Below are positions 4,144-46,612 of a stretch of 64,000 bases of DNA, one piece after another. Position numbers and translations under genes: made by a program. The first letter of the stretch is position 1. Each line of letters opens with the position of its first letter. The DNA is taken from positions 1 to 64,000 of the forward strand of contig JAKAFK010000008.1 in the NCBI GenBank assembly GCA_021817985.1. The letters run 5' to 3'. This DNA comes from Pseudomonadota bacterium (GTDB lineage Bacteria > Pseudomonadota > Gammaproteobacteria > Burkholderiales > JAKAFK01). Below the pieces are notes generated by a model. The model did no database searches. It had not been told where the DNA came from and saw only the letters and a list, made by a program, of their open reading frames with translations.

Positions 4144-5841
4144 CTATACCAGGATCATTTCGCTCAAGCCCTTCCCGCTCGGCACCATCGGATAGACGTT
4201 CTCCGTCTGGTCCGTGATGAAATCCAGGAAAACCAGGCGTTCCTTCATCGAGAAGGCCTCCTTCAGGGCACCCTCGACGTCGCTGGGCGATTCGATGCGC
4301 ATGCCCACATGGCCATAGCTCTCCGCCAGCTTCACGAAATCCGGCAGCGCATCCACGTATGACTCGGCGTAGCGATTGCCATAGAAGAATTCCTGCCACT
4401 GCCTGACCATGCCCATGTAGCGGTTGTTCAGGTTCACGATCTTGATGGGCAGGTGGTACTGCTTGCACGTGGAGAGCTCCTGAATGCACATCTGGATGCT
4501 GGCCTCGCCCGTCACGCACGCGACCGTCGCGTCCGGATGCGCCAGCTGAACGCCCATGGCAGAAGGCAGGCCGAACCCCATCGTGCCGAGCCCCCCCGAG
4601 CTGATCCAGTGGCGCGGCTGCGCGAACTTGTAGAACTGCGCCGTCCACATCTGGTGTTGGCCGACGTCGGAGGTGACGAAGGCCGCCCCGTGGGTGACCG
4701 CATAGAGCTGCTCGATCACGGCTTGCGGCTTGATGAGCTTGGAGGTCCGGTCGAAGTGAAGGCAATCGCGGGAACGCCAGAGCTCGACTTGCGTCCACCA
4801 GGTCTTGAGCGCCGCCTCGTCCGGCTTCTCCTTGGCCCCCTTGATGAGCTTGAGCATCTCGCCCAGCACGTCTGACACACTGCCGACGATCGGCACATCC
4901 ACCCTGACGCGCTTGGAGATCGATGCCGGATCGATGTCGACGTGAATGATCTGCTTGGGCTCCTGGAAGAAATGATCCGGGTTCCCGATCACCCGGTCAT
5001 CGAAGCGCGCGCCGATGGCCAGCAGCACGTCGCAGTGCTGCATCGCCATATTGGCTTCGTAGGTGCCGTGCATGCCCAGCATGCCCAGAAAAAGGGGATC
5101 GGTCGCCGGGAACCCGCCGAGGCCCATGAGCGTGCTGGTACACGGAAAACCCAGCTCGCGCACCAGTTCGGTCAGCTGGGGGGCGCCATCGCTCAGGATC
5201 ACGCCGCCCCCGGTGTAGATCATCGGCCGCTTCGCGCCGAGCAGCAGCTGCACCGCCTTCTTGATCTGGCCGGGATGGCCTTTGGTGACCGGATTGTAGG
5301 AGCGCAGGCTCACCTTCTGCGGATAGGCAAACTCGGTCTTTTGCTGGGTGACGTCCTTGGGAATATCGACCAGCACAGGCCCCGGGCGCCCGCTGGCGGC
5401 GATATAGAACGCGCGCGCGAGGGTGTCGGCAAGCTGGGCAATGTCCTTGACGAGGAAATTATGCTTCACGCAGGGCCGCGTGATGCCCACCGTATCGACT
5501 TCCTGGAAGGCATCGAGTCCGATGGCCGGCGTCGGCACCTGGCCGCTGATGATCACCAGAGGAATGGAATCCATGTACGCGGTGGCAATGCCCGTGACGG
5601 CATTGGTCGCCCCGGGTCCCGAGGTCACCAGCGCGACGCCGATCTTCCCGGACGCGCGCGCATACCCGTCCGCGGCATGAACGGCCGCTTGTTCATGGCG
5701 CACGAGCACGTGCTTGAAGTGCTTCTGCTTGAAGATTTCGTCGTAGATATTGAGGACAGCCCCACCCGGGTAGCCGAAAACGAATTCCACCCCTTCTTCC
5801 TGCAAACAGCGAACCGTGATTTCCGCGCCCGTCAATTCCAT
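4144..5841 (-). CDS. ilvB: Acetolactate synthase large (catalytic) subunit
   Basis: ThDP- and FAD-dependent enzyme making acetolactate and acetohydroxybutyrate, the entry point to branched-chain amino acids. The 565-residue length is typical. It has the N-terminal ThDP pyrimidine-binding part with FVFGYPGGAVLNIYD and the catalytic Glu in VRHEQAAVHAADGYAR, a central FAD-binding domain, and the C-terminal ThDP-binding domain ending its motif at NLNNRYMGMV. The motif start reads G-E-A-S where most relatives have G-D-G-S or G-E-G-S. It heads the leftward operon, with a good sigma70-type promoter about 40-70 bases upstream. Confidence 0.97.
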   Translation of the reverse strand: MELTGAEITVRCLQEEGVEFVFGYPGGAVLNIYDEIFKQKHFKHVLVRHEQAAVHAADGYARASGKIGVALVTSGPGATNAVTGIATAYMDSIPLVIISGQVPTPAIGLDAFQEVDTVGITRPCVKHNFLVKDIAQLADTLARAFYIAASGRPGPVLVDIPKDVTQQKTEFAYPQKVSLRSYNPVTKGHPGQIKKAVQLLLGAKRPMIYTGGGVILSDGAPQLTELVRELGFPCTSTLMGLGGFPATDPLFLGMLGMHGTYEANMAMQHCDVLLAIGARFDDRVIGNPDHFFQEPKQIIHVDIDPASISKRVRVDVPIVGSVSDVLGEMLKLIKGAKEKPDEAALKTWWTQVELWRSRDCLHFDRTSKLIKPQAVIEQLYAVTHGAAFVTSDVGQHQMWTAQFYKFAQPRHWISSGGLGTMGFGLPSAMGVQLAHPDATVACVTGEASIQMCIQELSTCKQYHLPIKIVNLNNRYMGMVRQWQEFFYGNRYAESYVDALPDFVKLAESYGHVGMRIESPSDVEGALKEAFSMKERLVFLDFITDQTENVYPMVPSGKGLSEMILV

Positions 5842-5882
5842 AGTTAGATTGCCCTGAAAGCTGTATCCCGAGGAAACCTAGA

Positions 5883-5911
5883 ACACTAATGGTTGTATGC
5901 CGTTTGGTCAA
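5883..5911 (-). promoter_or_regulatory. Promoter of the ilvB operon
   Basis: On the minus strand TTGACC (5906-5911) and TAGTGT (5883-5888) are separated by exactly 17 bases. This predicts a start near 5876 and a leader of about 35 bases before ilvB. It is the best match in the ilvB upstream region. Confidence 0.6.
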
Positions 5912-5938
5912 GGGGCGTCAGCGTCCAGCCGGGACGGC

Positions 5939-5944
5939 TATAAT
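5939..5944 (+). promoter_or_regulatory. Candidate -10 box of the lipoprotein gene
   Basis: TATAAT lies 20 bases before the ATG of the plus-strand lipoprotein gene. No recognisable -35 element precedes it. A transcript starting about 7 bases downstream would have a leader of only about 14 bases, consistent with the weak ribosome site seen there. Confidence 0.4.
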
Positions 5945-5964
5945 GGATAACACGGTCCCGAGAT

Positions 5965-6525
5965 ATGCGTATGCGCCAAGAAGCCAAACAGCGACTCCGA
6001 TGCGTCCTCAAGGGGCGAAATCTTGCGCTTTTCTGCGCCTGCGTGCTCGTGCTGGCCGGCTGTGGAGGCGGGCCGCCCGAGCACTTTCTGGAGGAACGGT
6101 TCGGGCCGAACGGCGAGCATCGCCAAGTGTTCGACGCGCCGCCCGCCCGGGTGTGCGCGGCGGCGCAGGCGGCGCTGCTCGAGCAGGGGTATGTGCTGGC
6201 GTCCGTCTCGCCAGACCAGTTGACCCTGGTCGGCGCCAAGCAATTCCAAGAGAAGGACAATCGCTTCGCCACGCTTCAGGTCCAGGCCGCTTGCCGCCCG
6301 CAGGCCAAAGGGACGGCGCTTTTCGTCACCGCGGTGGAAAGCCGGTTCGACGTGGCGCAGCAAAAGGAAAAAAGCGGCATCGGCCTCCCGCTGGTGGGTC
6401 CGATCACCGTCACGAGCGCTTCGTCTTCCGAAGCCCAGGTGCAAAGAGGGGGCCAAACCGTCGAAGATCCTTCCTTCTACCGGCGATTCTTTGGCGCCGT
6501 CCGGCGAGCGTTGCGCCTGCCCTAA
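5965..6525 (+). CDS. Putative lipoprotein, DUF2242-like
   Basis: A 186-residue protein, probably anchored in the outer membrane as a lipoprotein. It has a basic N-terminus, a hydrophobic stretch (about residues 19-31) and a lipobox L-A-G-C at residues 30-33, followed by Gly-rich sequence. The body, with an ALLEQGYVL segment and regions resembling KxFQ, fits the DUF2242 family of uncharacterised proteobacterial lipoproteins as I remember it; the family call is tentative, the lipobox is clear. It is transcribed divergently from ilvB. A hairpin starts immediately after its stop codon. Function unknown. Confidence 0.75.
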   Translation: MRMRQEAKQRLRCVLKGRNLALFCACVLVLAGCGGGPPEHFLEERFGPNGEHRQVFDAPPARVCAAAQAALLEQGYVLASVSPDQLTLVGAKQFQEKDNRFATLQVQAACRPQAKGTALFVTAVESRFDVAQQKEKSGIGLPLVGPITVTSASSSEAQVQRGGQTVEDPSFYRRFFGAVRRALRLP

Positions 6526-14150: not shown

Positions 14151-14678
14151 ATGGCTGCCGATGAACTGTTCGAGAAGATGGATGCCTTGCTGCGCAAACA
14201 TCATCCGCAGCCCGCGCGCCCCGCGACGGATTTCCCCGAGATGCCCCCCACGCCCCAAGGCTTCGACCCGGACGGGGAACTGCCGACGATGAGCGCCATT
14301 CCCACGCTCACCGACATCGTCCGGCCCTTGGATGTCGACTATCCCTTCCCCGAGCGTCCAGCGCCTGCCGAACCGCCCACACATCCGGCCCCTACCCCTT
14401 GGGGTCTCGGGCCGGCCACGCCCCCCGCCATCGAGGATGCCTCGCCCATCAACGATTCGGCGACCGAGGTGCTCCTGCGCGCCGTCGACAAACACCTGGA
14501 AAAGTGCCTGCAGACGGTCATCGCCCCCCGCCTCGCCCAGTCCCTGGACGCCGCACTGTCCGCCATGATCGAGCAGTTCAGGATCCACATCGAGCACATC
14601 GTGCGCGAGACCGTGGCCAGCGAGCTGCGCAGATACCGCCAAGACCCGACCGACGACCCTGAGAAATCCGCTGAATAA
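14151..14678 (+). CDS. Hypothetical proline-rich protein with a C-terminal helix
   Basis: A 175-residue protein with no recognised catalytic motif. Residues 1-20 (LFEKMDALLRKHH) look helical, residues 20-110 are rich in Pro and Ala and probably disordered, and residues 110-165 form a likely amphipathic helix or coiled coil with alternating charges (LLRAVDKHLEKCLQTVI, AMIEQFRIHIEHIVRET). AGGAGG lies 8 bases before the ATG. Its position after holC suggests co-transcription with pepA-holC, and similar small hypothetical genes occur here in relatives. Function unknown. Confidence 0.75.
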   Translation: MAADELFEKMDALLRKHHPQPARPATDFPEMPPTPQGFDPDGELPTMSAIPTLTDIVRPLDVDYPFPERPAPAEPPTHPAPTPWGLGPATPPAIEDASPINDSATEVLLRAVDKHLEKCLQTVIAPRLAQSLDAALSAMIEQFRIHIEHIVRETVASELRRYRQDPTDDPEKSAE

Positions 14679-14864
14679 CAATATAACCATTTGATAATAC
14701 AGCTAAAGCAAAGGCTGTGCACCGCCGATATATAGGATGCTTCTATCCTCTAAAAGACGGTTCGAGCGGCGCCAATCGCGCCGGGTCCCGCAAACACCAC
14801 GCCGGGATGGATGCGTGCTCGGGGCGTGACTCGTCAGGCGTGACAGAAAAAGCCGGTGAATTCC
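14679..14864. other. AT-rich leader before the three-gene unknown operon
   Basis: 186 bases, distinctly AT-rich in its first 80 (AATATAACC, TTTGATAATAC, GATATATAGG), unlike the surrounding coding DNA. It contains -10-like hexamers (GATAAT, TATATA) and a small stem, AGGAT against ATCCT, at about 14737-14752. This is where a separate promoter for the downstream operon would be expected. No gene seen. Confidence 0.4.
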
Positions 14865-15191
14865 ATGCAGACCGTGAAACACGATCGCGGCAGGGCAGGT
14901 GCAATGGGCTGGCGCAAGGCGCAGGCCTGCGTCGATTATGTCGCCTACACCCATGCGCTGCCTTCCACCAATGACGGCGGATGGCAAGAGATAAGCACAC
15001 GGCTGCGCGTCCTGGGCATCTGCCAGGACACCGCCATCGGTGTGACCACTGTTCGAAATGACTGGGGTTTTTTCCAGATTCCGACGCGGAACTTCCCGGA
15101 ACTGAAGGTCACTTTCTTCCGGACCGCCCGTGTGGCCGACCGCAACAACGTGTTGGCGGCGATCGCCGCGATCCTGGAGCCGGCATCATGA
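14865..15191 (+). CDS. Protein of unknown function, first gene of a three-gene operon
   Basis: A 108-residue soluble protein I do not recognise. There is no signal peptide or membrane helix. The middle reads VDYVAYTHALPSTNDGGW and RLRVLGICQDTAIGV, and the C-terminal half is hydrophobic/aromatic (DWGFFQIPTRNFPELKV), suggesting a small alpha/beta domain. It has two cysteines. I used the ATG at 14865; an in-frame GTG nine bases upstream is possible. Its stop overlaps the next start by four bases (ATGA), so the operon is tightly coupled. Confidence 0.72.
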   Translation: MQTVKHDRGRAGAMGWRKAQACVDYVAYTHALPSTNDGGWQEISTRLRVLGICQDTAIGVTTVRNDWGFFQIPTRNFPELKVTFFRTARVADRNNVLAAIAAILEPAS

Positions 15192-16144
15192 GCCAAGGAC
15201 GGTCATTTCGCATCAATCTGCCTACGCTGTTCGAACGGGTCAACGCGCGCCGCAAGGCGCAAGGCTTGTCCACCGTCGAGCCCGCAGTGATGGCGGTCCG
15301 CGCCAGCATCAAGTTCGCGATCGACCGACAGCGCTACATGGACCTGCAGAACACGGAAATCGATCTGGAAAAGACCGACGCCGATGCCCTGTGCCACGCG
15401 CTGGGCGAACTGTTCAACGTCGACCTTCATCTGGACGATGACCCTCTGGCAGACAAGTCCGCCGCCCCTGCGGCGGCGGCCGGCGGCACGGAGGATGCCC
15501 GCCGTGTTCTTCCCATGTTCCAGTTCTACGCCGCGATCAATCGCCAACGCCGCGCCAAGGGCCTGCAGCCGGTGGAGCCGGCCGTGATCTCGGTGCACAC
15601 CGGCATCAAATTCTCCATCATGCGGCGACGCGCCCTGAATTTCCGTGAGGACAAGCTGATCGTGAGCGACGGCGACCTCGACGCGCTCGACGAGATCGTC
15701 GCCCAGCAATTCGACGTAGCCATCCCGGGTGGCTTGCGCAGCCTGTGCCCGGCGGTCGCGAAAGCGGCACCTCCCTCCACCGCCCCGGGCGTCGACGCCG
15801 GCGGCGAAGGGAAGCGCTTCCTCGGCCGGTTTCTGCACGGGATCACGGCCAAGGACGAATCCAGGATGCACACGCGCCATTACGCGCTGGACACCAACAA
15901 CCTGCTGCTGTCCATCATCACGCGCCGCGCCTATCTCGGACATCGCCCGATCACGCCGGACAAGGTCAAAAAGCGCTGCCGCGAAGCGCTGTCCGCAGAG
16001 CTTGAGCTGGAGGTGGACCTGAACGACGAACGGATCACACTGACGCCGGACCAACTCGACCGGTTCGCCGACCTCATCCGCAAGGAATTCGAGATCATGT
16101 TCGAGGACATGGGCGACCTGCTGGGCAAGAAAACAAAAACATAA
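15188..16144 (+). CDS. Three-repeat protein of unknown function
   Basis: A 318-residue soluble protein built from three copies of a module of about 75 residues: about 8-82 (NARRKAQGLSTVEPAVMAV), about 108-178 (NRQRRAKGLQPVEPAVISV) and about 230-305 (LGHRPITPDKVKKRC). Repeats 1 and 2 are closely similar; repeat 3 is divergent. Each has a basic helix, a V-[ED]-P/[IT]-P turn, a second basic helix, and an acidic segment ending in a hydrophobic helix such as LGELFNVDL or VAQQFDVAI. The linkers are Ala/Pro/Gly-rich. No catalytic residues or cysteine clusters are apparent; it looks like a scaffold or ligand-binding protein. Translationally coupled to the gene before it, 21 bases before the gene after it. 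Confidence 0.75.
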   Translation: MSQGRSFRINLPTLFERVNARRKAQGLSTVEPAVMAVRASIKFAIDRQRYMDLQNTEIDLEKTDADALCHALGELFNVDLHLDDDPLADKSAAPAAAAGGTEDARRVLPMFQFYAAINRQRRAKGLQPVEPAVISVHTGIKFSIMRRRALNFREDKLIVSDGDLDALDEIVAQQFDVAIPGGLRSLCPAVAKAAPPSTAPGVDAGGEGKRFLGRFLHGITAKDESRMHTRHYALDTNNLLLSIITRRAYLGHRPITPDKVKKRCREALSAELELEVDLNDERITLTPDQLDRFADLIRKEFEIMFEDMGDLLGKKTKT

Positions 16145-16165
16145 ACCGAGGACCGAGGACAACAC

Positions 16166-17359
16166 ATGAAGGAAACCCCCGAATACCAGCACGGCCAAGC
16201 CTTTCTCGGCGGCCTGAACCATGTGTATCACTGCAACCACTACAACGCCCACCTGCAGATGACGGTGATGCTCGCCGACGGCGTCGAAGGAGGCTTCGAT
16301 CCGCGCCGCCTGCTGCGCGACGGCGCAGCGCAGGTGGTCCAGGCCCTGAAAGCGCGCGGCTATGAACCGCAGGATCTGCGCGACGAGTTCACCTGGTGCG
16401 GGTTCGGCTACATCAAGGACGTCACGGCCGACCAGGTCGAATTGCCTGGATCGCACTACGGCCAGTCCACCTACCTGCTCGGCGTGCCTGAGAAATCGTG
16501 CTTCTTCAACGCCGGCTTCCTGCAAGGCATGACCGGCCGAGCCACTACCGAAACGGCATGCCGGCACACGAAGGCGCGCACCGACGTGTTCGATTTCGGC
16601 GCGCCCGCGCCGGCCCCCGACAACCCGTTCGTCAACCCGCCGCCGTTCACGCCGGTACCCCGGCGCTTCGATTTTCAGGGCTGCGAGATCGCCTCCACGC
16701 CGGTCGACGAAGACACGATCGTCGCCACCGTGGCCACCCTGCCGCTCTATGGCAAGCCGCCGAGCGAGAACGGCGACGGCCTGATCCCGGCCTTCGGCGT
16801 CGTGCTCACCAACCACTACGCCGACTACTACAACCTCATCAGCTACCAGACCTACGGGCACATGGTTCACGCCGGCGTGCCCGCCGACATGGCTCGGGAG
16901 GCGTTCGTCCAGTGCGGTCACGTGTGCGCATTCAACACCTTCGGCGGCATCATGGAAAGCCCGGAATTCCATGCGCTGGTGGTCCCGATGTGCCAGGATG
17001 TGGCCGACTGGATCCACGGCATGGTGGCCGTCATCAATGCCCTGGGTTGGGGGGCGTGGCGGGTGGAAAGGATCGTTCCCGGCAAGGAGCTGATCGTTCG
17101 GATATACAACTCCTACGAAGGGGTCGGCTACCGGCGTCTGCACCCTGCCGCACCCGAGAAGCAATTGTCCTTCCTGGCCATGGGCGCCGTGCGCGGCCTC
17201 GCGCATCTGTTCTGGAAGATCGACATCCGGGAGCGTCCCGGGCTGAGCCAGGATTACTACTTCAACGTGTTCAATTCGCACCAAGGCTACTGGAACGTCG
17301 AGCAGACCCATGCCATCGCGGCAGGCGACGGCTTCGACCGCATCGTCGCCTGGAAATGA
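16166..17359 (+). CDS. Duplicated V4R-like protein of unknown function
   Basis: A 397-residue soluble protein with two related halves. Each half begins with a His/Tyr/Asn-rich stretch (LNHVYHCNHYNAHLQ near residue 17; LTNHYADYYNLISY near 214) and ends in a segment resembling the tail of the V4R (4-vinyl-reductase) small-molecule-binding domain: GFLQGMTGRATTETACRHTKA near 117-137 and YWNVEQTHAIAAGDGFDRIV near 374-394. The first copy keeps the motif's Cys, the second has Ala. Homology to V4R is by eye only. It closes the three-gene operon. The aromatic/His-rich halves and loss of Cys in one copy suggest a ligand-binding or sensory role rather than an enzyme. Confidence 0.75.
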   Translation: MKETPEYQHGQAFLGGLNHVYHCNHYNAHLQMTVMLADGVEGGFDPRRLLRDGAAQVVQALKARGYEPQDLRDEFTWCGFGYIKDVTADQVELPGSHYGQSTYLLGVPEKSCFFNAGFLQGMTGRATTETACRHTKARTDVFDFGAPAPAPDNPFVNPPPFTPVPRRFDFQGCEIASTPVDEDTIVATVATLPLYGKPPSENGDGLIPAFGVVLTNHYADYYNLISYQTYGHMVHAGVPADMAREAFVQCGHVCAFNTFGGIMESPEFHALVVPMCQDVADWIHGMVAVINALGWGAWRVERIVPGKELIVRIYNSYEGVGYRRLHPAAPEKQLSFLAMGAVRGLAHLFWKIDIRERPGLSQDYYFNVFNSHQGYWNVEQTHAIAAGDGFDRIVAWK

Positions 17360-31607: not shown

Positions 31608-32747
31608 CTAAAAAAACCCTGCGCCGACGTCCTCGCCCGCCATCTGGCGCTTGACCGCCGCGACATCCAGCGCCTCGAGCGCGAACGGGAAAGACAGGAT
31701 ATCCGTCGGCGTGGAATCGCCATAAGGCCGGTTGCAGGCCGAGACCGTTTCATCGAGGCTCCCGGGACATCCCGAAGTCTGGAAGGGCTTTCCGGATTGG
31801 ATCTGGGCCTCGAGCGCCGACTTCTCCATGCCGAAATCCGTCACCCGCCCCGCCCCGTCGAAGGCCATGCGCGTCACGTGTCCGCCCGCATAGTCGATGA
31901 GAAAGCGCGCAAGCTGCACGCGTCGCCACTGCCCCCGGTCCACCGGGGGCCACTCCTCCATCAGAGACCCGCGTTCGGGGAAGAAGGCGAACATGTGGTT
32001 GTGCCCTCCCATCTCCTTGATGCGCTGGCAGGTCTCCAGGATCTCGCGTTCGGTTTCCCCCATGCCGCAGATCAAGTGTGCGCCAAACTTCTCCGGCCCA
32101 AAGATCTCGGCCGCCCACTCGATGGCCTCCCAATACTTCTCGTAGCGATGTGGGGAGTCCACGGTCTTGCCCCGCGTGCGCTCGAAAATCGTCGGCGTCA
32201 CGGCGTCCAGCGCCACCGTAAAGATGTCGGCACCCAGCGACTTCAGTTCGATGAGATCCTCGCGCGTCATGGTCGTCGGATTCGACAGAATCGACACCGG
32301 AATCCCAGGCAATGCCGCAACCCAGCGTGCAAGCAGAACCCGCGTGTCGGCGTCCGATGCCGGATGGGTGATCATGGAGATGCACATCCGCTGAAAGCGC
32401 CCTTGATCGCCCCCCGCCTTGACTCGCGCGATCACCTCCTCGAAGCGGGCCGTCGGCCAGTCCACCCGGATGAAGTTGCGATCCGCGAAGTCGCGCGCTT
32501 CCTCGCGATGGCGGGCAAGGCCGCAATAGGAGCAGTTGGCGCGGCATCCTTCCGGGTAGGTGACCAACAGGTTCAAGCAATGCGTGCAGCCCGTCCGATG
32601 CATGAGCCCCGGAACGAGCCCCAGCGTGATCGCCGCCGCCGTGCTCATCTGGACATATTCCGGCGAGCGCATCTGGGGCGTCTTGACATGGTAGTTCGGC
32701 CGGTACACGTGGACCGGCTGGACCTGCTCAGCACCGCCATTCATCAT
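31608..32747 (-). CDS. Radical SAM protein of lipoyl synthesis (LipS2-like)
   Basis: A 379-residue radical SAM enzyme. The cluster-binding C-x3-C-x2-C lies at C68, C72 and C75 (GCRANCSYCGLAR), with a further Cys pair at 54 and 57 (GCTHC) that may bind an auxiliary cluster. It ends the long leftward sHdr operon, next to a flavoprotein, a two-domain lipoate ligase, a second radical SAM gene and two lbpA genes. In such clusters two radical SAM proteins, LipS1 and LipS2, together replace LipA and insert sulfur into protein-bound octanoyl groups. I assign it as LipS2-like by position; the two could be swapped. A GAGGGG ribosome site precedes tandem ATGs at 32742-32747. Confidence 0.8.
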   Translation of the reverse strand: MMNGGAEQVQPVHVYRPNYHVKTPQMRSPEYVQMSTAAAITLGLVPGLMHRTGCTHCLNLLVTYPEGCRANCSYCGLARHREEARDFADRNFIRVDWPTARFEEVIARVKAGGDQGRFQRMCISMITHPASDADTRVLLARWVAALPGIPVSILSNPTTMTREDLIELKSLGADIFTVALDAVTPTIFERTRGKTVDSPHRYEKYWEAIEWAAEIFGPEKFGAHLICGMGETEREILETCQRIKEMGGHNHMFAFFPERGSLMEEWPPVDRGQWRRVQLARFLIDYAGGHVTRMAFDGAGRVTDFGMEKSALEAQIQSGKPFQTSGCPGSLDETVSACNRPYGDSTPTDILSFPFALEALDVAAVKRQMAGEDVGAGFF

Positions 32748-32797
32748 GGTTCCCCTCTGTTCCAATCCGTCTGCGGGCGCTTCCAGCGCCTCGCGCC

Positions 32798-33883
32798 CTA
32801 CGGGATCGACGGCCCCTCGGCGAAATATTCCGGAAACGCGATCCATCCCCGGCGATGCACGTCGTCACGCTGCGCCAAATCGCGTCCCCAACAGCGCTCA
32901 AGCTCCTTGCGCCGCACCACCGCGCGCGCGAGCGTGGTCTCGAACTGGTCGCGCACATCCTCTTCGAATGCGGCGAGCGCAACCTCCGGGGCACCGCGCG
33001 CCGCTTGCGCGACCGCCTCGCCGGCGCGCTCGCCGGAGATGACCGCGGCCGCAATGCCGGCACCCGACACCGGGTGAGTAAGCCCGGCAGCGTCTCCGAC
33101 CAGGAGAACGCTTCCCACCACCAACCGTTCGCGCAAGCCGCCCACCGGAATCATTCCGCCTGTACGGCTCATGATCCCGGGGCGCACGCGCCCCTCTTCC
33201 ACGAGCCGCCGGTGCAGGGCGTCGAGCGGTCGCTTGAGGTCACGCGCAAAGCGCTTGTCGACACCCAGGCCGATGTTCGCAACCGACCCTTTCGGAAACA
33301 GCCACGCATAGCCCCCCGGATAATCCCCCGACAGCCAGATGCTGGTGTCTTGGTCGCGCTCGTTGAGCGCCACCGTGTACTGCCGGGCATGAACCGTCTC
33401 CAGCGGCTTGAGCCCCAGGGCGTGCGCGACAGACGAGTGCGGGCCGTCCGCCGCGATGAGCCACCGGAAGCGGATCTCCCGCTCCGAACGGAGCCCGGCG
33501 ATGCGCGCCGCACAAGCCCCCGGATCGAGTCCCGCAAGCCGCGTCGACAGCGCCAACCGCGCACCGGCGCGTTCGGCCGTGGCCGCCAGCGCCTGGTCGA
33601 AGCGCGCCCGGTCAATCATGAGGCCGCGCGCTTCCGATCGAAAAACAGCCCCAGAGGGCAGGCAAGTCCTCATGCCCAGAATCTTCTGGGCGCTCACCCC
33701 GTCGGCCTGCGCGTATGCGCCAAGCGGCGCCGGAATCCACTCCGCGCATTGCACGGGCACACCGATCTCCGCACGCCGCTCGACGGCCAGGACGGACAAC
33801 CCCAGCGCGGCAGCGACAGCGGCGGCCGCTGCCCCGGCGGGCCCCAGGCCGACGACCAGCACGTCGGCATGACTGTGGCTCAT
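32798..33883 (-). CDS. FAD-dependent oxidoreductase, geranylgeranyl-reductase-like (LipT-like)
   Basis: A 361-residue flavoprotein. The N-terminal FAD-binding motif is GLGPAGAAAAAVAAAL at residues 12-27, with the acidic residue ending beta-2 in AVERRAEIG. A later VLLVGDAAGLTHPVSGAGI segment is the second FAD motif of the geranylgeranyl reductase/monooxygenase group, and SGDYPGGYAWLFPKG is also typical. Genes of this family sit in lipS1/lipS2/slpl clusters and have been called lipT; an electron donor role for the radical SAM lipoyl synthases is plausible. The start overlaps the slpl(AB) stop codon by four bases (ATGA), so it is translationally coupled. Confidence 0.82.
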   Translation of the reverse strand: MSHSHADVLVVGLGPAGAAAAAVAAALGLSVLAVERRAEIGVPVQCAEWIPAPLGAYAQADGVSAQKILGMRTCLPSGAVFRSEARGLMIDRARFDQALAATAERAGARLALSTRLAGLDPGACAARIAGLRSEREIRFRWLIAADGPHSSVAHALGLKPLETVHARQYTVALNERDQDTSIWLSGDYPGGYAWLFPKGSVANIGLGVDKRFARDLKRPLDALHRRLVEEGRVRPGIMSRTGGMIPVGGLRERLVVGSVLLVGDAAGLTHPVSGAGIAAAVISGERAGEAVAQAARGAPEVALAAFEEDVRDQFETTLARAVVRRKELERCWGRDLAQRDDVHRRGWIAFPEYFAEGPSIP

Positions 33884-34962
33884 GCGGCCGTTCCCGGTGC
33901 GAGGGCCGGCGCCTCCAGCGCCGCGCGCACGACCCATGCGAAGTCGGCGGGTCGAAGTCCGAGCATGTCGACCCCGCGTCCTTCGAAAAACGCTTCGATG
34001 CGTGCCTCCAGCCCTTCCAGCGCGGTATCGCGCAAGGCGGCCTCGAGGTCGGCCACCGTCCGCCGCGGGCTGATGAAGAAATCGCCCGTAAACCAGACCT
34101 GCTTGAGCCGCCCGCTCGGCACATCGAACCGCGCGCGGGCTCTGAGAAGGCCGCCCGATGTCTTCACCCAGGCTTCATGAAGGGGCTGATCGCCTGTGGG
34201 GCGATCGATCAGGCGCACCCAGTCTTCCCCGTCAATCTCGGCCAGCGTCTGCTCGAGGCGCCCTCGCTCGGCGCGGTTCAGGGTGCCCTCGACCCCGCTC
34301 ACGCCGAATTCGCGTTCAAACGCGCCGAGAAGCCTCGCCTTGACCTCCGGAAGGGCGGGGGGCGAGCCCAGGATGTCCTTGAGGCTCGATACCCGATCGC
34401 GCGCCGACGCGATCGCCTTGTCGGAGAGCTTCTCGGCCGGAATCTTGAGGACGCGCAGCATCCTCTCGATGTCGAATTCAATCAGCAGCGTGCCCTGGTA
34501 CAACAGCGCATCGCCTTCGAAAATCCCGCCCGTCCCGGAGATCTTGCGGCCGTCCACTTCGATGTCGTTGCGCGGCCGAAACGCCGCATCGACCCCCAAC
34601 GTCCGGATGCCGGCCACCGCCGCCTGGCAGATTCGCTCCGAGATGACCGCCAGGCTCGCATGGCCGAAATCGCGCTTGTGCGCATAAAGTTCCCACCCGA
34701 GCTGCGCCTCATCGCAGTAGATCGCCCCGCCGCCCGTGATCCGCCTCGACACGGCGATCCCTTGCGCCCGGCAGTAGTCGAGGTCGAGCTCTTGGTCGAC
34801 GCTTTGATGAAAGCCCAGCAGCGCGCACGGGCGAAACCGGAGGAAGCGCAGTGTGGGCGGCGCCTCGCCCGAAGCCAGCGCATCCAGCAGCGCACGGTTC
34901 AAGGCAATGTTTTCGGCCGCCTCGCGCACCCCGGTATCCAGCACGCGCCACGTCGGGCTCAT
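33880..34962 (-). CDS. Lipoate--protein ligase sLpl(AB)
   Basis: A 360-residue ligase containing both the LplA catalytic domain and the C-terminal accessory (LplB-type) domain. The catalytic part shows SRRITGGGAIYCDE at 72-85 and NDIEVDGRKISGTGG at about 132-146, with the active-site Lys at 140. The accessory domain starts near residue 255 (TSGGLLRARARFDVPSGRLKQVWFTGDFF). This family attaches lipoate or octanoate to LbpA, the lipoylated carrier of sHdr. It lies between the lipS1-like gene (nine bases upstream) and the flavoprotein gene (overlapping), all in the sHdr operon. Confidence 0.87.
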   Translation of the reverse strand: MSPTWRVLDTGVREAAENIALNRALLDALASGEAPPTLRFLRFRPCALLGFHQSVDQELDLDYCRAQGIAVSRRITGGGAIYCDEAQLGWELYAHKRDFGHASLAVISERICQAAVAGIRTLGVDAAFRPRNDIEVDGRKISGTGGIFEGDALLYQGTLLIEFDIERMLRVLKIPAEKLSDKAIASARDRVSSLKDILGSPPALPEVKARLLGAFEREFGVSGVEGTLNRAERGRLEQTLAEIDGEDWVRLIDRPTGDQPLHEAWVKTSGGLLRARARFDVPSGRLKQVWFTGDFFISPRRTVADLEAALRDTALEGLEARIEAFFEGRGVDMLGLRPADFAWVVRAALEAPALAPGTAA

Positions 34963-34971
34963 GTCTGGCCC

Positions 34972-36114
34972 CTAGCCGCCACGGGCTGCAAGGACGACCG
35001 GGACGCCCGCCAGGCGCCCGGCAAAGCGGCGGGCGCGCTCGTGCGCCACGATTTGGTCGAGATCGAGGATCAGTCCGGAGTTCTCCGCGCGGGTCGCCAG
35101 CACTTCATCGCCCACGGCGATTGAACAGCACGAGGGCGTGACGCGCACCTGGCGACCGAGGCGCGCAGCGAGTTCCACCACGCCATCCGCGGGGTGGGCA
35201 ACGCCATTGAGCCCGGCCATCACGGCATAGGCGTCGATGGCCACTTTTGCGCGACCGGACGGGCGTGCGCAACCCAGCAGGAGCGGGATGTCCGGCAGTG
35301 CCGCGCGGGCATCCATGAAGAAGCGGCCGATCTCCCCGCTTTCGGGCACCGAGAAAGGGCGCTTCGCGGGCGCATAGAACGGCATCGCCACCACGAGCAC
35401 CACGGCGGCGGGCACATGACGGCCGACGATCTCAAGCGCCGCCCGTTCCCCCAGAAAACGCCCGTAGTGAAGGCCCAGCACGATGTGCGGCACCACCTTG
35501 AGGCGCGTCGCGACCAGATGTTCGAGGCTGCGCTCGAAATCGTCCACGGTGCGGCGCAGGTGATACACCTGCGTGATGGTCTCCTGCGCGCCGATCACGT
35601 CCATCATGGCGGCATCGATCCCGCAATCCTCCATGCGATGGGCGATGTCGCGATCGACCAGCGCGGTATGCATCGCGATCTTGAACTGCGGGAAAGTGTC
35701 CTTGATCCGGCGAATGGTCGGATAATAGGGGCCGTACTCCACTTCGTTGCGGAGGTTCGAACCGCCGGTCAGCAGCATGCCGCGGGCGCCGGCGGCGATG
35801 CTGTCGTTGACCGCGCGCCACAGGGCCTCGGGCGTGCGCGCCGGGATCATGGGTTCGAGGATCTTGGCCTTGCAGTGGTCGCACTTGAGCTTGCACTCGG
35901 CCCCGGTGATCGACACGGCCGGCCACGTGTTCCGGCCGCAGGCCGAAATTTCGGAGGTGGCATAGGCCTTGAACGAAGGCGTATAGAAATTCACGCCCTC
36001 GGACGGGCGCCCTTTCCTCTCGCCGAAACGCCTCTCCAGCCCGGAAACGATCTGCGCATCGAGCCGGAGGTCGTCCAGCGGTTCAATCTGTTCGACGATC
36101 GAAAGCCAGTCCAT
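34972..36114 (-). CDS. Radical SAM protein of lipoyl synthesis (LipS1-like)
   Basis: A 380-residue radical SAM enzyme with C-x3-C-x2-C at C74, C78 and C81 (ECKLKCDHCKAK), preceded by a Cys at 59 (EISACGRNTW). The C-terminal region contains TPSCCSIAVGDEV, another Cys pair possibly for an auxiliary cluster. It is unrelated to classical LipA, which has two N-terminal Cys triads. By context it is one half of the LipS1/LipS2 lipoyl synthase pair; the other half is at the end of the operon. The ATG at 36112-36114 (MDWLSIVEQIEP) is the sensible start. Confidence 0.8.
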   Translation of the reverse strand: MDWLSIVEQIEPLDDLRLDAQIVSGLERRFGERKGRPSEGVNFYTPSFKAYATSEISACGRNTWPAVSITGAECKLKCDHCKAKILEPMIPARTPEALWRAVNDSIAAGARGMLLTGGSNLRNEVEYGPYYPTIRRIKDTFPQFKIAMHTALVDRDIAHRMEDCGIDAAMMDVIGAQETITQVYHLRRTVDDFERSLEHLVATRLKVVPHIVLGLHYGRFLGERAALEIVGRHVPAAVVLVVAMPFYAPAKRPFSVPESGEIGRFFMDARAALPDIPLLLGCARPSGRAKVAIDAYAVMAGLNGVAHPADGVVELAARLGRQVRVTPSCCSIAVGDEVLATRAENSGLILDLDQIVAHERARRFAGRLAGVPVVLAARGG

Positions 36115-36220
36115 CGTGCAACGCCCCCTTCGCCGGCGTTCGGTTTCAGGTCCCGAAAAACAGGAGGGCGATGTTCGTCGCACCGCCCCCCCTGTCGCGC
36201 CAATCGGCCGCATGCCGCCA

Positions 36221-36658
36221 TCAGCAACCGCCAAACCCCTCGGCATTCATCTTGGCTTCGAAGGCCGCCGCCACCGCCGCACCGGTGATGAGGACGCCCG
36301 CCTCGGCGTCCCAATCGACAGGCTTCATCCGGACCAGCCAGCCCGCATGGTAGGGATCCCCATTGATCGTGCCCGGCTTCGCCGCCACGGCATCATTGGA
36401 GGCCAGGATCTCGCCCGTCACCGGTGCCTTCACCGGGCCGACCCATTTGCCGGACTCGACGGTCGCCACCGACTTGTTCTGGTCGATCGACTTGCCCGCT
36501 TTCTTCGGCGTGTAGGAGACGATTTCCCCGGCCAGCGAACAGGCATAGGCGGTCATGCCCACGGTGATCGTGCCGTCCGCCTCGCGGCGCGCCCAGACAT
36601 TGTTCTCGACGTTGTAGTAAAGATCGTCGGGGAGATTGCAGCCGCGCACCGTTGCCAT
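36221..36658 (-). CDS. lbpA: Lipoate-binding protein (second LbpA)
   Basis: A 145-residue GcvH-like carrier. The lipoylated Lys is K71 in VATVESGKWVGPVKAPVTGEIL, the hallmark hairpin, preceded by ITVGMTAYACSLAGEIV. In sHdr organisms LbpA is not part of glycine cleavage but the sulfur-carrying partner of the sHdr complex, and no gcvP/gcvT genes are near. It is shorter and less divergent than the other lbpA in this operon, from which it is separated by a dsrE-like gene. A Cys at position 7 and a C-terminal Cys are unusual. It is the natural substrate of the neighbouring ligase and radical SAM pair. Confidence 0.9.
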   Translation of the reverse strand: MATVRGCNLPDDLYYNVENNVWARREADGTITVGMTAYACSLAGEIVSYTPKKAGKSIDQNKSVATVESGKWVGPVKAPVTGEILASNDAVAAKPGTINGDPYHAGWLVRMKPVDWDAEAGVLITGAAVAAAFEAKMNAEGFGGC

Positions 36659-36872
36659 TGCTTTTACGCCTTTCGAATCAAGTGAAAGAAGGAACTCACT
36701 TCGCCGACGGGTTCTTCGTCGGCCGCTCGTCTCGCAAGCATCCCGGCTGCTTTGTTTTCTGGTGCGCGAAGGCAACGGGGCACGCCGGGCGTTGAATCTT
36801 GATGCCCGCGACGGCGCCATGCTTCAGTCTAGACCATCGCTGCGCGCTCTCCCGCAGCGTCTTGCGCCCGCT

Positions 36873-37268
36873 TTAGAAGAAAAGCGCCTTGTCGCAGCTC
36901 AAGATCAGATCGGCAAGCGTGCTCGCATTCGAAATCTCGTCGATTTCTTCGATCACATCGCCCACCTCGATGTCGTAACCGGGCAGCGCGGGCTTGCACA
37001 GATGAAGCTTCACGCCGGCAGCCTTCGCATCGCGCATGAAGTCGAGGATTGTCTTGCCCCCCTTCATCGCTGTCAAGTCTTGCGCAACGCCATGCTTGCC
37101 GAGGAGCACACCTTCCATGGTGAAAAAGACTTTGACCTCGACGTCCATCGAGGCGAGGATCGCGCCGATATAAAAAGGCGTTGCGCACCGATGGGGCGTG
37201 GACGGGCCGCTCGTCATCACAATGACGACGGATTTCTCTTCGTTCTCGACATAGCGGGCATCCGTCAT
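36873..37268 (-). CDS. DsrE-family sulfur carrier protein (DsrE3-like)
   Basis: A 131-residue DsrE/DsrF-like protein with the alpha/beta pattern VVIVMTSGPSTPHRCATPFYIGA, VEVKVFFTMEGVLL and VKLHLCKPALPG. Cysteines lie at 28, 91 and 125; C91, in the loop before the last strand pair, is in the usual sulfane-sulfur-carrying position. Proteins of this family shuttle persulfide sulfur in the cytoplasm together with TusA. Its start overlaps the stop codon of the upstream lbpA by four bases (ATGA). The subgroup label is by context and needs phylogeny. Confidence 0.82.
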   Translation of the reverse strand: MTDARYVENEEKSVVIVMTSGPSTPHRCATPFYIGAILASMDVEVKVFFTMEGVLLGKHGVAQDLTAMKGGKTILDFMRDAKAAGVKLHLCKPALPGYDIEVGDVIEEIDEISNASTLADLILSCDKALFF

Positions 37269-37741
37269 TCGGAGATCCCTTCCCCACGGGTACAGTAGAT
37301 TTCTTCGCGCCCGGCGCGTTCGCAATACCCTGTCTTCGCGGCGCTGCCGATCAGCAGATGCGAAAGAGCCTCCGCGATGCCGGCCTGCGGCCGCACGCGC
37401 GCAATCCAGGCATCGTACGGTGCATCGTTGAGAAGACCCGGATTGTCCAGCACGTCAGGATTCGCATCGACGATGACGCAATCGAAGACATTCGGCACCG
37501 GCCCGGCCCATTTCCCGCTCTCGATGGTTGCCACCGGCTTGCCGCTCGGGCGAGCCGTCCCGGGCTTGCGCACGCGCACATGCAAGATCTTGCCGGCGAT
37601 CGCCTGCGAAAGATCGGTCATGCCGATCGACAGGAGACCGCCGGCCTCTGGCCGCACCCAGATCTGGTACTGGTCGTCATAATAAAGCTCGGGGCGAAAT
37701 TCGCAACCGTTGCACTCGTCCAGCCGCTTTGCAGGCATCAT
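37265..37741 (-). CDS. lbpA: Lipoate-binding protein (first LbpA)
   Basis: A 158-residue GcvH-like carrier with the lipoyl Lys at K77 in PVATIESGKWAGPVPNVFDC. The N-terminus has a Cys pair (ECNGCEF, C10 and C13) not found in GcvH, and the C-terminus is extended (SAAKTGYCERAGREEIYC). It follows hdrB2, the usual place of lbpA in sHdr operons, and is coupled to the dsrE-like gene. Compared with the second copy it is more divergent from GcvH, which suggests specialisation, for example docking to sHdr versus delivery. Confidence 0.88.
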   Translation of the reverse strand: MMPAKRLDECNGCEFRPELYYDDQYQIWVRPEAGGLLSIGMTDLSQAIAGKILHVRVRKPGTARPSGKPVATIESGKWAGPVPNVFDCVIVDANPDVLDNPGLLNDAPYDAWIARVRPQAGIAEALSHLLIGSAAKTGYCERAGREEIYCTRGEGISE

Positions 37742-37888
37742 GGCTCCCGTTCGAGGCCACCGACGCGGAGAATGCGGAACCGGCCCCTTCGCCCACGGCG
37801 CAAGCTGGCTCGAGAGGTTCTCCCGCGCGATCCGCCCGCCCGTCGTTCCGGAAGTCCCCTTATAGGCCCGGCAGGCCCGAGACGCAGG

Positions 37889-38800
37889 CTAGATGATACC
37901 TTTCCCGTGCAAAAAATCGAGCGAGTCGCTCACATTCTCATGAATGGCCAGCTTGCGGGCGGACAGGCCCAGCGCAAGACCGAGCAGCTGCGTGAAGTAG
38001 AGGACCTTGACCCCGGTCTTGATGCCGAACTCCGTCTCGGCCCGCACCTGATGCATCTCGAGGCCGGAATGGCAGGTCGGGCATTCGGTGGCGATCACTT
38101 CCGCGCCGCATTCTTCGGCGGCCTGCAGGATATTGAGCACCAGCTGGGTAGACGTGTCCGAGTCCGACAGCGTATGCGCGCCCCCGCAGCAAGCCGTCTT
38201 CAGTGGAAAATCGACGTTCACCGCGCCGGCCGCCGCCAGCAGGTCGTCCATGAAGTGCGGCTTGTGGCTCGACTCCGAGCCTGGGCCTTGGTCCTTCTCC
38301 GGGAAGATCTGGCGCGGCCGCGTGTACATGCACCCGTAATAGTTGGCGATTCGGATCCCGTTGAGGTTCTTCGTAAGTCTCGCCTTGATGCCTTCTGCGC
38401 CGACCGCCTCGATCAGCCACTCGAGCAGATGAACGGTCCGCACGTCCCCCTGATAGACCGGATCGTCCGCCCGTCTCGCGAGATCCTGCACGGTGGCAAG
38501 CGCCGTCTCGGAGGTCGCGAGCTCGTACTCGGCTTTCTTGAGATTGTGGTAGCAGCCGTTGCACGGGGCCATGACCGTGTCGTAGCCCATCTTGTCGGCG
38601 GCGATCGCCATGTTCCGCGCCGACATGTACGTCTGCAGCATGGGATGGATGTTCTTCACCTCCATGGCGCCGCAGCAGTTCCAGTCGTGCAAGGTCTCCA
38701 TCTCGAGTTCGAGCGCCTTGACCAGTGCGCGTGTCGAGCGGTCGTACGGCCCCCCGGAGCCCTCCAGGGCACAGCCGGGATAATACGCCACTTTAGGCAT
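37889..38800 (-). CDS. hdrB2: sHdr subunit B2
   Basis: Heterodisulfide-reductase-like subunit B2 of the sulfur-oxidising sHdr complex. The 303-residue protein contains two complete CCG domains for the non-cubane [4Fe-4S] clusters: YYPGC...DWNCCGAM...APCNGC and NYYGC...TACCGG...TECPTC. In methanogen HdrB this pair binds the disulfide; here it is thought to act on sulfane sulfur during oxidation to sulfite. The start codon overlaps the end of hdrC2 by eight bases. Order hdrC1-B1-A-hyp-C2-B2 is the diagnostic sHdr arrangement. Confidence 0.95.
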   Translation of the reverse strand: MPKVAYYPGCALEGSGGPYDRSTRALVKALELEMETLHDWNCCGAMEVKNIHPMLQTYMSARNMAIAADKMGYDTVMAPCNGCYHNLKKAEYELATSETALATVQDLARRADDPVYQGDVRTVHLLEWLIEAVGAEGIKARLTKNLNGIRIANYYGCMYTRPRQIFPEKDQGPGSESSHKPHFMDDLLAAAGAVNVDFPLKTACCGGAHTLSDSDTSTQLVLNILQAAEECGAEVIATECPTCHSGLEMHQVRAETEFGIKTGVKVLYFTQLLGLALGLSARKLAIHENVSDSLDFLHGKGII

Positions 38801-39563
38801 GCGCGGCCTCCTTTTGCTCTTGCACGTACTGGCGCAGGACTTCGCCGGTGCGTCCCCAGGATTGCGTGCGCGGCTTGAACAGCCGGTGCGCCAGCATGCG
38901 CACGGGCCCGGCCACCGGCACGCGGGCCAGAAACTTCGCCAAGTGCCCCTCGGCAAGCAGCGGCCACTTGCCCATGCGCGCCACGAAAACCCCCAGCCAG
39001 CCGCGCCGGACGAGCGCAACGAGGCTTTGGCGGGTATCGCGGAAGAAGCGGGTCATCAGCTCGGTGTCCTCGATCCGGCCACGGTCCAGGCATTGGCGCG
39101 TGAATTCCTCGTCAAACAAGGAAGAATGGGACTTCTCGCGGTACCCTTCGTCCTCGATCCAATGGGCCAGCGCCTTCATAACCCCCTCCGGACGCACGTC
39201 CTTCGGGCAGATGTTCGTGCACTTGTTGCAGGAGACGCATTGCCAGATGATGTCCCGGTCCTTGAGGAGTTCCTGCTTGAGCCCGAGGAGCGTCAGATAG
39301 ATCCAGTAGCGCGGGTTGAAATCGGTATTGAGCGCATACATCGTGCACGAATTGGTGCATGAGCCGCATTGCCAGCAGCGATGGACGTTCTCCGCCCCGC
39401 CGTAGCGCTCGATGACGTTCTGGAAATCCGGATCGTAGTCCTTCAAGGTGCGCGGCAGGATCATGGTATTCCATTGGCCCGACACGTCGACCCCGTCGAC
39501 CACCAGCTTGTCGCTCGTGAGCAGCCGATCCGGATCGATCAGCGTCTTCTCGTGAATCGTCAC
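38793..39563 (-). CDS. hdrC2: sHdr subunit C2
   Basis: Iron-sulfur electron-transfer subunit of sHdr. The 256-residue protein has two ferredoxin-type clusters: C-x2-C-x2-C-x3-C at about 63-73 (RCWQCGSCTNSC) and about 109-119 (WQCVSCNKCTNICP). The N- and C-terminal extensions are soluble and charged. It starts at a GTG (39561-39563) with GGAGG eight bases upstream, 18 bases after the hyp gene. It passes electrons between the HdrB-type subunits and the HdrA flavin. Confidence 0.94.
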   Translation of the reverse strand: MTIHEKTLIDPDRLLTSDKLVVDGVDVSGQWNTMILPRTLKDYDPDFQNVIERYGGAENVHRCWQCGSCTNSCTMYALNTDFNPRYWIYLTLLGLKQELLKDRDIIWQCVSCNKCTNICPKDVRPEGVMKALAHWIEDEGYREKSHSSLFDEEFTRQCLDRGRIEDTELMTRFFRDTRQSLVALVRRGWLGVFVARMGKWPLLAEGHLAKFLARVPVAGPVRMLAHRLFKPRTQSWGRTGEVLRQYVQEQKEAAHA

Positions 39564-39581
39564 CGTTGCGCCCTCCTGGCC

Positions 39582-40448
39582 CTACGCGGGGCCATCTGCA
39601 AGCCCGTCCGATTTCCGGACGCGGGAGCGGCGCCCCCGCGCCTCGTCAATGCCCAGGAACTGGGTGATCGCATCGATGGGTTCGACCCCGCGTCCGAACT
39701 CCATGGACACCATGCCGCGCGCCATCGCGTGGAAATACGCGGCGTAGGCACTTGCCAGAACAATGTCGACGATCAAGGGGAGGTCGCGGTAGATGCCTTG
39801 GCCGGCCACTTGCGTCGCAAGCCAGCTGCGTGCGTCCTCGAACATTTCCGGCGCCATGCCGAGGGAAATTTCCGCCCCCGACTCTCCGCCGGCGACGAAT
39901 TCGCGCAGCGCGCCCGAGGCCGTCGCCTGATCCCATACCCAGCACGTCATCAAGGGATGGCTCAAGGGATCGTTGAAGTGGAGGCACTCGGCCGCAAAAT
40001 CCCGCGCCGCCCGCCGAAGCTTCTGCGCTTGCCGGGCGTGTGCCCCGTCGGCCCCTGCCCCTGCGCCGAGGCTGTCTGCGAAGGCCTCCACTCGGGCGCG
40101 CAAGGCGGATCGTCCGTACAGCAGGTCGCGCAAGGCGACCCGGAGCCGGTCGGCCCCCAGCCGCGCAAGCGCCGGGAAGATCCGCCGTCTTGCGGTGAAA
40201 ACGCGATCCAGCAAGACTTCCAGGCCGTCGAGATCGATCCGATCCAGGGCGTCCGGTGCCAGGGCCTCTTGAAAGAGCGCCCCCTTGGCGGCCAGGGCCT
40301 CCACGAGGGCGGCAAGGCCGGGAACCTCTCCGCAATCCCGCAGGCAAGCCGCCCAGCGCGCCTGAAAAAGCCCCTCGTCCAAGGGCAGCGTCGGCGCGAC
40401 GCGGGCGTCCTGGGGTGCCGGCTCATGCCGCCTGATGGTCCAGAGCAC
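39582..40448 (-). CDS. Conserved hypothetical protein of the sHdr cluster
   Basis: A 288-residue, mostly helical soluble protein that occupies the 'hyp' position between hdrA and hdrC2 in sHdr operons. It has Ala/Leu/Arg-rich helices, no signal peptide, and few cysteines (C35, C39, C155, C169). The C-terminal half has ECLHFNDPLSHPLMTCWVWDQ and a hydrophobic DLPLIVDIVLASAYAAYF segment. I infer a GTG start at 40448 overlapping hdrA by 26 bases. Conservation of its position suggests a structural or assembly role in the complex; no activity can be read from the sequence. Confidence 0.82.
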   Translation of the reverse strand: MLWTIRRHEPAPQDARVAPTLPLDEGLFQARWAACLRDCGEVPGLAALVEALAAKGALFQEALAPDALDRIDLDGLEVLLDRVFTARRRIFPALARLGADRLRVALRDLLYGRSALRARVEAFADSLGAGAGADGAHARQAQKLRRAARDFAAECLHFNDPLSHPLMTCWVWDQATASGALREFVAGGESGAEISLGMAPEMFEDARSWLATQVAGQGIYRDLPLIVDIVLASAYAAYFHAMARGMVSMEFGRGVEPIDAITQFLGIDEARGRRSRVRKSDGLADGPA

Positions 40449-41472
40449 CGAGATCCCCTACGGCACGCAGTGCCATCGCGAGCCCGTGCGAGATGCTGGA
40501 ATCGATGTCCTCCGGTCCCAGTGCGGCGCCCCCGACATAGATGCCGCGGCGGGTGCTGGAGAACGTGTTCGTATAGTGCTCGCCGCGGTCAAGAAAACCG
40601 TGCCGCTCCAGCCCGACGCCGAAGACCTTGGCGATCTGCGGGTTCTCGAGGTTCGGATCCATCCCGATGGCGTGCACCACGAGGTCCATGGGGATCACGA
40701 TCGGCCGCTTCACCAGGGTATCCTCGCCCTTCAGCAAAAGCCGCCCGTCGGGCGCCCGCGTCACCTCCGCGATGCGCGCCTTGACGAACTTGGTCTTGAA
40801 CTCTTCCTGGCTTTTCCAGTAGAACTTGTCTTCGTACAGGCCGAAGGTGCGGATGTCCATGTAGTAGATGAAAACGTCCGTCTTGGGCGAGAGCTCCTTG
40901 ATTTCCATGGCGAGGTTGGTCGACACCGTGCAGCAGATCTTGGAACACCATTCGCGCCCGATCTGGCGATCCCGCGAGCCCACGCACAGGAGAATCGCCA
41001 CGCGCTCGGGCACCCGCCCGTCCGACGGGCAGGCGATCCTGCCGGCGGCCACCATCTGCTCGACCTGCGTCGTGGTCACCACGTCCTCGAACGTTCCGAA
41101 ACCCCACTCCGGCTTGTTGATCGAATCGAAGTGGGTGAACCCGGTCCCCAGGATGATGGCGCCGGCGCTGATCGTCTGGCCGTTGGTGAGGGTCGCGGTG
41201 AACCGGCCCGCCTCGCCGTCCAGCTGCGCCACCTTGGCGTTCTTGTGGATGGTCACGGCAGGATTGGCCTCGACGCGGCCGACCATGCGGCCGATGGCGT
41301 CCTTCGCCCATTCGCCGGAAGGCACCAGCCGGGCATAGCCGGAGATGATCGGCGCACCGCCCAGGATATTTTCCTTCTCGACCAGCACGACCTTCTTGCC
41401 GACCGCGGCGATGCCCGCGGCAGCCGACAAGCCGGTCGGCCCGGCGCCCACGACCAAGACGGTATCTGGCAT
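40423..41472 (-). CDS. hdrA: sHdr subunit A (flavoprotein)
   Basis: FAD-binding core of sHdr, 349 residues. The N-terminal dinucleotide fold has GAGPTGLSAAAGIA at 9-22 and the acid-ended second strand VLVEKE. An internal cysteine group, CVGSRD...EWCSKICC (C163, C176, C180, C181), matches the cluster-binding site of HdrA-type proteins. It ends with the flavin-binding TRRGIYVGGAALGPEDI. Much shorter than methanogen HdrA: the C-terminal ferredoxin part is absent, as in other sulfur oxidisers. Its ATG overlaps the hdrB1 stop by one base (TGATG). Confidence 0.94.
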   Translation of the reverse strand: MPDTVLVVGAGPTGLSAAAGIAAVGKKVVLVEKENILGGAPIISGYARLVPSGEWAKDAIGRMVGRVEANPAVTIHKNAKVAQLDGEAGRFTATLTNGQTISAGAIILGTGFTHFDSINKPEWGFGTFEDVVTTTQVEQMVAAGRIACPSDGRVPERVAILLCVGSRDRQIGREWCSKICCTVSTNLAMEIKELSPKTDVFIYYMDIRTFGLYEDKFYWKSQEEFKTKFVKARIAEVTRAPDGRLLLKGEDTLVKRPIVIPMDLVVHAIGMDPNLENPQIAKVFGVGLERHGFLDRGEHYTNTFSSTRRGIYVGGAALGPEDIDSSISHGLAMALRAVGDLGALDHQAA

Positions 41473-42812: not shown

Positions 42813-42825
42813 CGATATAGCCTGC

Positions 42826-42990
42826 TATCAAGAAAGTGCGCGAACGTGCGCGCAGTTCTTTTCCTGCCCCGAGTTCCTTACTGGCTTAGGCTCGTCACTG
42901 ACAGGCGTTACTTTCCCGGCTGCGACAGGAACCTCTCCTGCCGCAGCGCCGCCGTTGCCGGACGGACTCGCCACGGGTAGGGCAGTTGCG
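42826..42990 (-). ncRNA. Predicted omega RNA (reRNA) at the tnpB 3' end
   Basis: TnpB families use a guide RNA that overlaps the 3' end of tnpB and runs into the element's right end; the guide is the flanking DNA. The last about 45 codons of this tnpB are the Gly/Pro/Val-rich low-complexity stretch typical of that overlap, and a stem (42837-42854) sits at the boundary. The guide portion would then read the hdrB1 leader and start (below 42826). Limits are inferred, not observed. Confidence 0.4.
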
Positions 42991-44168: not shown

Positions 44169-44202
44169 GGTTACTCGTATTCTTCAAAGGCCCGATTCGA
44201 TT

Positions 44203-44829: not shown

Positions 44830-44836
44830 GAGCACT

Positions 44837-44863
44837 ACCATACACTCGAATACACTATGTCAA
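44837..44863 (-). promoter_or_regulatory. Promoter of tnpA overlapping the hdrC1 stop codon
   Basis: On the minus strand a perfect TTGACA (44858-44863) is followed after 15 bases by TATGGT (44837-44842). The TGA inside TTGACA (44860-44862) is the hdrC1 stop codon. The short spacer weakens it, but the -35 is consensus. It could also feed transcription into hdrB1 and the rest of the operon. Confidence 0.5.
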
Positions 44864-46538: not shown

Positions 46539-46612
46539 GCCCTTCTCTTCCTCTCCTAGTCGTCCCGGTCGGGGCTTAATCGCCCTCTGCCATTAAATCC
46601 CGGACGAGATGT

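Follow-up and report, generated by a model that had tools for sequence, protein, structure and literature searches.

Hydrophobic molecules are the presumed ligands of V4R domains, which are believed to signal in cis or in trans (PMC2253512). The closest described relatives of P3, the third product of the operon analyzed here, are the XylR_N plus V4R regulators MopR, PoxR and DmpR, followed by TRAPP Bet3/TRAPPC3 and the Asgard TRAPPC3-like proteins. The zinc ligands of DmpR are C151, E172, C177 and C185 (PMC7264223), and a DmpR-like zinc site and ligand cavities are common to Asgard TRAPPC3 and PoxR (PMC10933270). P3 resembles the MopR/PoxR/DmpR group, its top fold match, in the presence of a V4R C-terminal motif, in the C-E-C zinc-ligand positions of its first half and in a putative small-molecule pocket. 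However, the 397 residues of P3 are filled by two V4R-like halves, with no AAA+ or DNA-binding domain, the second half has no zinc site, and the protein is too distant for a Pfam match. With TRAPP it shares the superfamily fold and a dimeric arrangement, which in P3 would plausibly be formed within a single chain; association with membranes would be a further likeness, proposed here for P1, P2 and P3 together. TRAPP combines a Bet3-type subunit with longin-domain subunits; P1 and P2 are not recognizable as longin-domain proteins in profile searches, nor P2 in a fold search, and vesicle tethering is a role shown for TRAPP, not for P3. For P2 the described counterpart is the tail of MinD, an amphipathic membrane-targeting helix (PMC8155659).

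The operon was found in a stretch of 64,000 nucleotides that was analyzed as a whole (the window), and its features are listed in the table below. P1 and P2 overlap by ATGA and a gap of 21 bases separates P2 from P3, so the three open reading frames and couplings given in a preliminary description of this DNA stand. Comparison with a congener, the other genome of the genus in the analysis, gave dN/dS values of ∼0.24 for P1, ∼0.21 for P2 and ∼0.10 for P3. All three are therefore real coding genes, and they are under purifying selection. The operon lies downstream of holC (PF04364) and one hypothetical gene (14151–14678, no Pfam match) and upstream of valS. This hypothetical gene has weak similarity (26%) to a gene at the same site in another genome (G007, locus L105). 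In E. coli the order is pepA-holC-valS. When pepA/holC and operon genes were sought within the flank around valS in 18 further relatives from the same order, most had pepA and/or holC upstream of valS together with no operon genes. The best reading is thus that the operon is an insertion in this genus, in line with the earlier statement that it interrupts the common gene order. The AT-rich leader noted there is present but modest, with a GC minimum of 0.43 at 14650–14749; no sigma-70-like promoter was found on its forward strand, and an Rfam search of the leader and operon gave no match.

Table. Positions of the operon, its leader and the repeats and domains of its products in the window
Feature	Position	Strand	Description
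Intergenic leader 5′ of P1	14679–14864	+	First ∼70 bases AT-rich
P1	14865–15191	+	108 aa, orphan small protein; no family or PDB match
P2	15188–16144	+	318 aa, three beta-alpha-alpha-beta-alpha repeats; Gammaproteobacteria orthologues single-repeat
P2 repeat 1	15203–15415	+	Residues 6–76; AlphaFold secondary structure, P2 profile match
P2 repeat 2	15503–15712	+	Residues 106–175; the one to which the sole repeat of gamma homologues aligns
P2 internal amphipathic segment GGEGKRFLGRFLHGI	15800–15844	+	Between repeats 2 and 3
P2 repeat 3	15881–16090	+	Residues 232–301; divergent, outside the reach of the P2 profile
P3	16166–17359	+	397 aa, tandem V4R-superfamily protein
P3 N-terminal V4R-like half	16178–16615	+	C112, E129, C132 (and D140) at V4R zinc-ligand positions; invariant H22-C23, H97
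P3 C-terminal V4R-like half	16700–17356	+	Zinc ligands gone; invariant C254, C276, H284

P3 consists of two V4R-superfamily domains fused in tandem. The protein itself has no match in Pfam, and P3 of a related locus (L026) reached 16 bits against PF02830, for which the curated cut-off is 31. In a homologue encoded as a split pair on a contig labeled Woesearchaeota (L008), both halves match this family with E values of 1.7e-6 and 1.7e-5 and with bit scores, 28.5 and 25.3, just below the cut-off. At related loci two adjacent genes, for proteins of ∼171 and ∼195 aa, each match one half of P3. Profiles of these split genes aligned in hhalign with the N-terminal half of P3 (E 3e-19), with its C-terminal half (E 2e-45) and with each other (E 5.5e-9). 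The split pairs at L024, L031, L032 and L082 differ from P3 in being separate genes and in clustering without P1 or P2. In a Foldseek search with the AlphaFold model of P3 (pLDDT 86, pTM 0.89), the top folds were the sensor domains of MopR, PoxR and DmpR, with TRAPP Bet3 after them (probability 1.00, best E 6e-4, target-normalized TM 0.54–0.67). Three of the four zinc ligands of DmpR are kept in the first half of P3, with the conserved D140 near the fourth position, and none is present in the second; in the L008 homologue, as judged by eye, both halves have Cys/Glu zinc ligands. The preliminary description had called P3 a duplicated V4R-like protein, which the split homologues, hhalign alignments and fold matches bear out. 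It had also left all three proteins unplaced. This still applies to P1 and P2, which match no family, but P3 can now be assigned to the V4R/TRAPP superfamily.

Secondary structure in the AlphaFold model of P2 agrees with the triple-repeat protein described earlier; confidence is fair inside the repeats, and the linkers are disordered (pTM 0.36). A fold search with the model gave no significant match, and weak matches of P2 to Npun_F5560, GvpQ and cGMP kinase were judged to be due to chance. In the gammaproteobacterial orthologues a single repeat is followed by a variable linker and then by a tail that is basic and amphipathic. In a pattern search, 25 of 32 single-repeat proteins ended in a short hydrophobic/basic motif with a net charge of +1 to +5. 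One of these tails, GFLGKIKSLFGG, is similar in sequence and position to the KGFLKRLFGG tail of E. coli MinD (taken from the genome). Unlike MinD, P2 has no ATPase domain; the shared motif is short and probably convergent, and membrane binding by P2 is putative. In the P2 of the window, GGEGKRFLGRFLHGI occupies the site of the C-terminal GF(F/L)xK(I/V)KGFF tail of single-repeat orthologues, so that the amphipathic segment is internal, and it is weaker than its counterpart in the gamma proteins. The earlier designation of the products as soluble needs to be qualified for P2, which is probably peripheral to the membrane. The conserved core of P1 comprises C22, Y25, G51, V60, P73, P78 and F84, with the motif GFFxxPxxGFPExKxTFF. 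Profile searches with P1–P3 in Pfam, NCBIfam, PADLOC and PHROGs returned nothing usable, in agreement with their reported uncharacterized status, and family-alignment profiles of P1 and P2 matched no Pfam family and no PDB sequence. P1 and P2 may be two protein families not described before.

The three genes form a conserved unit. Of 41 loci with sufficient sequence, profile searches place P2 next to P3 at 38; P1 lies ahead of P2 at 19 loci, and the order is invariably P1-P2-P3 (both counts made by hand). This arrangement is therefore not due to chance, and an outcome that the preliminary description would have taken as refutation, no joint occurrence of the three genes in other genomes, is ruled out. 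At one locus (L037, 719–1465) a single open reading frame spans P1 and P2 and may be a natural fusion. P2 is duplicated 5′ of P3 at L052 and L068, and a second copy lies 3′ of P3 at L044; these are local expansions of the P2 family. The genomic contexts of the operon differ and include, as read off translations, gnd/zwf, an ABC exporter, gluQ-RS and the DNA polymerase III alpha gene, among others. A search for recurrent neighbors found zwf at four loci and phasin at four loci, neither of them general. Because the neighbors are mostly unrelated housekeeping genes, no output partner was identified there.

P3 is present in both genomes of this genus, in Hydrogenophilales-like MAGs, in one other proteobacterial MAG and on the L008 contig, which may be misbinned. 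In the genome samples, P3 was found in 6 of 399 genomes of its own order (P3-only homologues in family f37 included), in 5 of 274 genomes of the class sample (its own genome counted) and in 3 of 117 genomes of one beta family. It is widespread, at 30 of 43 genomes, in the gammaproteobacterial order of genome G574, probably Beggiatoales; two other orders of Gammaproteobacteria also contain it, one in 2 of 20 genomes and the other in 2 of 5. A phylum-wide sample contained no P3 except in its own genome; P3 is therefore not a general proteobacterial gene. One genome (G1036), which lacks dsrA, encodes a divergent P3 homologue without P1 or P2. In the P3 tree all beta sequences, which come from a few Hydrogenophilales-like bacteria that include the present genome, form one supported clade inside the gamma diversity, a topology consistent with transfer. 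A phage or plasmid origin of the operon was rejected, P3 being absent from the phages, plasmids and viral contigs searched; with no PADLOC match and no PHROG of known function, a role in anti-phage defense or as a toxin or mobile element was likewise dismissed.

Genomes with the operon are associated with dsrA. The gene is present in 29 of 31 host genomes tested, the two exceptions being <85% complete, against a background of 87 of 274 genomes in the class sample. Within the order of G574, dsrA was found in 20/20 hosts and 6/9 non-hosts (p ∼0.02), an association that is only moderate because the hosts share ancestry. All host lineages tested have dsrA where the genomes are near complete. In the genome studied here dsrA is located on another contig (G000:C46), and the window contains an sHdr-type cluster (32000–46540) with an HdrB-like CCG protein, a GcvH-like lipoate-binding protein, DsrE_2 and a 4Fe-4S protein; the genome thus seems to have both sulfur pathways. 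Two genes inside this cluster, at 42828–44841, one TnpB-like and the other encoding a MerR-type serine resolvase (both read from translations), resemble an IS607-family element. In the papers searched, no text joins V4R to Beggiatoa, sulfur-oxidizing operons or reverse Dsr.

Several paralogues and split homologues of P3 are located beside regulatory genes. At L024 (1203–8472) the split V4R-like pair is followed by three Roadblock-domain genes, the first for a Roadblock protein and the others for Roadblock-similar proteins, one of which has a receiver domain as well, and then by a gene for a PAS histidine kinase. The whole is a predicted V4R-Roadblock signaling cluster. At L028 an extra P3 copy has two response-regulator genes and a gene for a dCache-HAMP kinase as neighbors, and the L008 split pair (4250–6036) adjoins an HxlR regulator.

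The V4R literature, these signaling neighbors and the dsrA counts favor a membrane-tethered V4R sensor/adaptor. We assign a probability of roughly 0.45 to the reading that the operon encodes an inner-membrane-tethered, ligand-sensing complex of this kind in reverse-Dsr sulfur oxidizers, which signals in trans. P1, P2 and P3 would form a cytoplasmic complex tethered to the inner membrane. P3 would be a single-chain V4R dimer, its first domain probably holding a structural metal, and the two domains would enclose a putative pocket able to hold a small metabolite, either hydrophobic or linked to sulfur. P2 would be the dedicated partner of P3 and its membrane anchor, through the MinD-like amphipathic helix, and P1 a small accessory subunit acting with P2. 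Ligand binding would alter the complex and pass a signal to another regulator; transfer in trans is proposed since P1, P2 and P3 all lack an output domain. Set beside the described systems, the operon would be a novel variant of V4R-based sensing. A wider formulation, possible though doubtful, is that P1-P2-P3 is an undescribed membrane-tethered V4R complex that in large sulfur bacteria would be dedicated to intracellular sulfur metabolism, either as its sensor or as a scaffold of a trafficking-like kind; it would be the bacterial equivalent of V4R assemblies of the TRAPP type that work at membranes.

Among the alternatives, the one that survives best, which we nevertheless consider unlikely, is a structural role as scaffold or tether. 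A V4R assembly resembling TRAPP or BcsD would then organize a complex at the inner membrane or at a granule surface (sulfur globule, PHA granule or vacuole) and would not sense a ligand. This reading would account for the Foldseek matches of P3 to Bet3 and BcsD, for the amphipathic tail of P2, for the growth of P2 from one repeat to three, which is typical of scaffolds, and for the phasin gene that at L064, L066, L070 and L075 lies just 3′ of the operon in the opposite orientation (PF09361 in the three of these tested). However, ligand sensors rank above Bet3 among the structural matches, P3 paralogues are located in signaling clusters, and the phasin adjacency is missing elsewhere and may reflect lineage inheritance.

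Less probable again is a function in cofactor or sulfur-carrier handling, in which His and Cys residues of P3 would bind a tetrapyrrole, a metal or a persulfide and aid the maturation or regulation of reverse Dsr enzymes. BchJ, a V4R protein of bacteriochlorophyll synthesis, offers a comparison. H22, C23, H97, C254, C276 and H284 are invariant and C112, C132, H217 and H252 near-invariant, a pattern that suggests a further metal or redox role and that fits this alternative, as do the H-NOX matches in Foldseek and the presence of dsrA in host genomes. Yet the H-NOX matches are weak (TM ∼0.45), no linkage of P3 to dsr genes was seen, and most dsrA genomes of the class sample lack P3, which is therefore not required for Dsr. 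The least likely reading is an orphan regulator that would serve general housekeeping or the stress response and have a purely phylogenetic link to sulfur oxidation, kept in one order and passed by few transfers among organisms that share habitats: one order does hold most hosts, transfers are few and genomic contexts unrelated, but dsrA in all the near-complete host lineages would arise by chance with a probability of only ∼0.001 if the six lineages are independent.

The analysis thus points to a compact module of three genes, conserved but without annotation, that occurs widely in one order of sulfur bacteria (probably giant ones); outside this order it was found almost exclusively in genomes that have reverse Dsr. 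The module is a concrete candidate for sensing or regulating internal sulfur in sulfur bacteria. To the V4R superfamily, the proposed ancestor of TRAPP Bet3, it adds a form in which two domains are fused in tandem and which may function at bacterial membranes.
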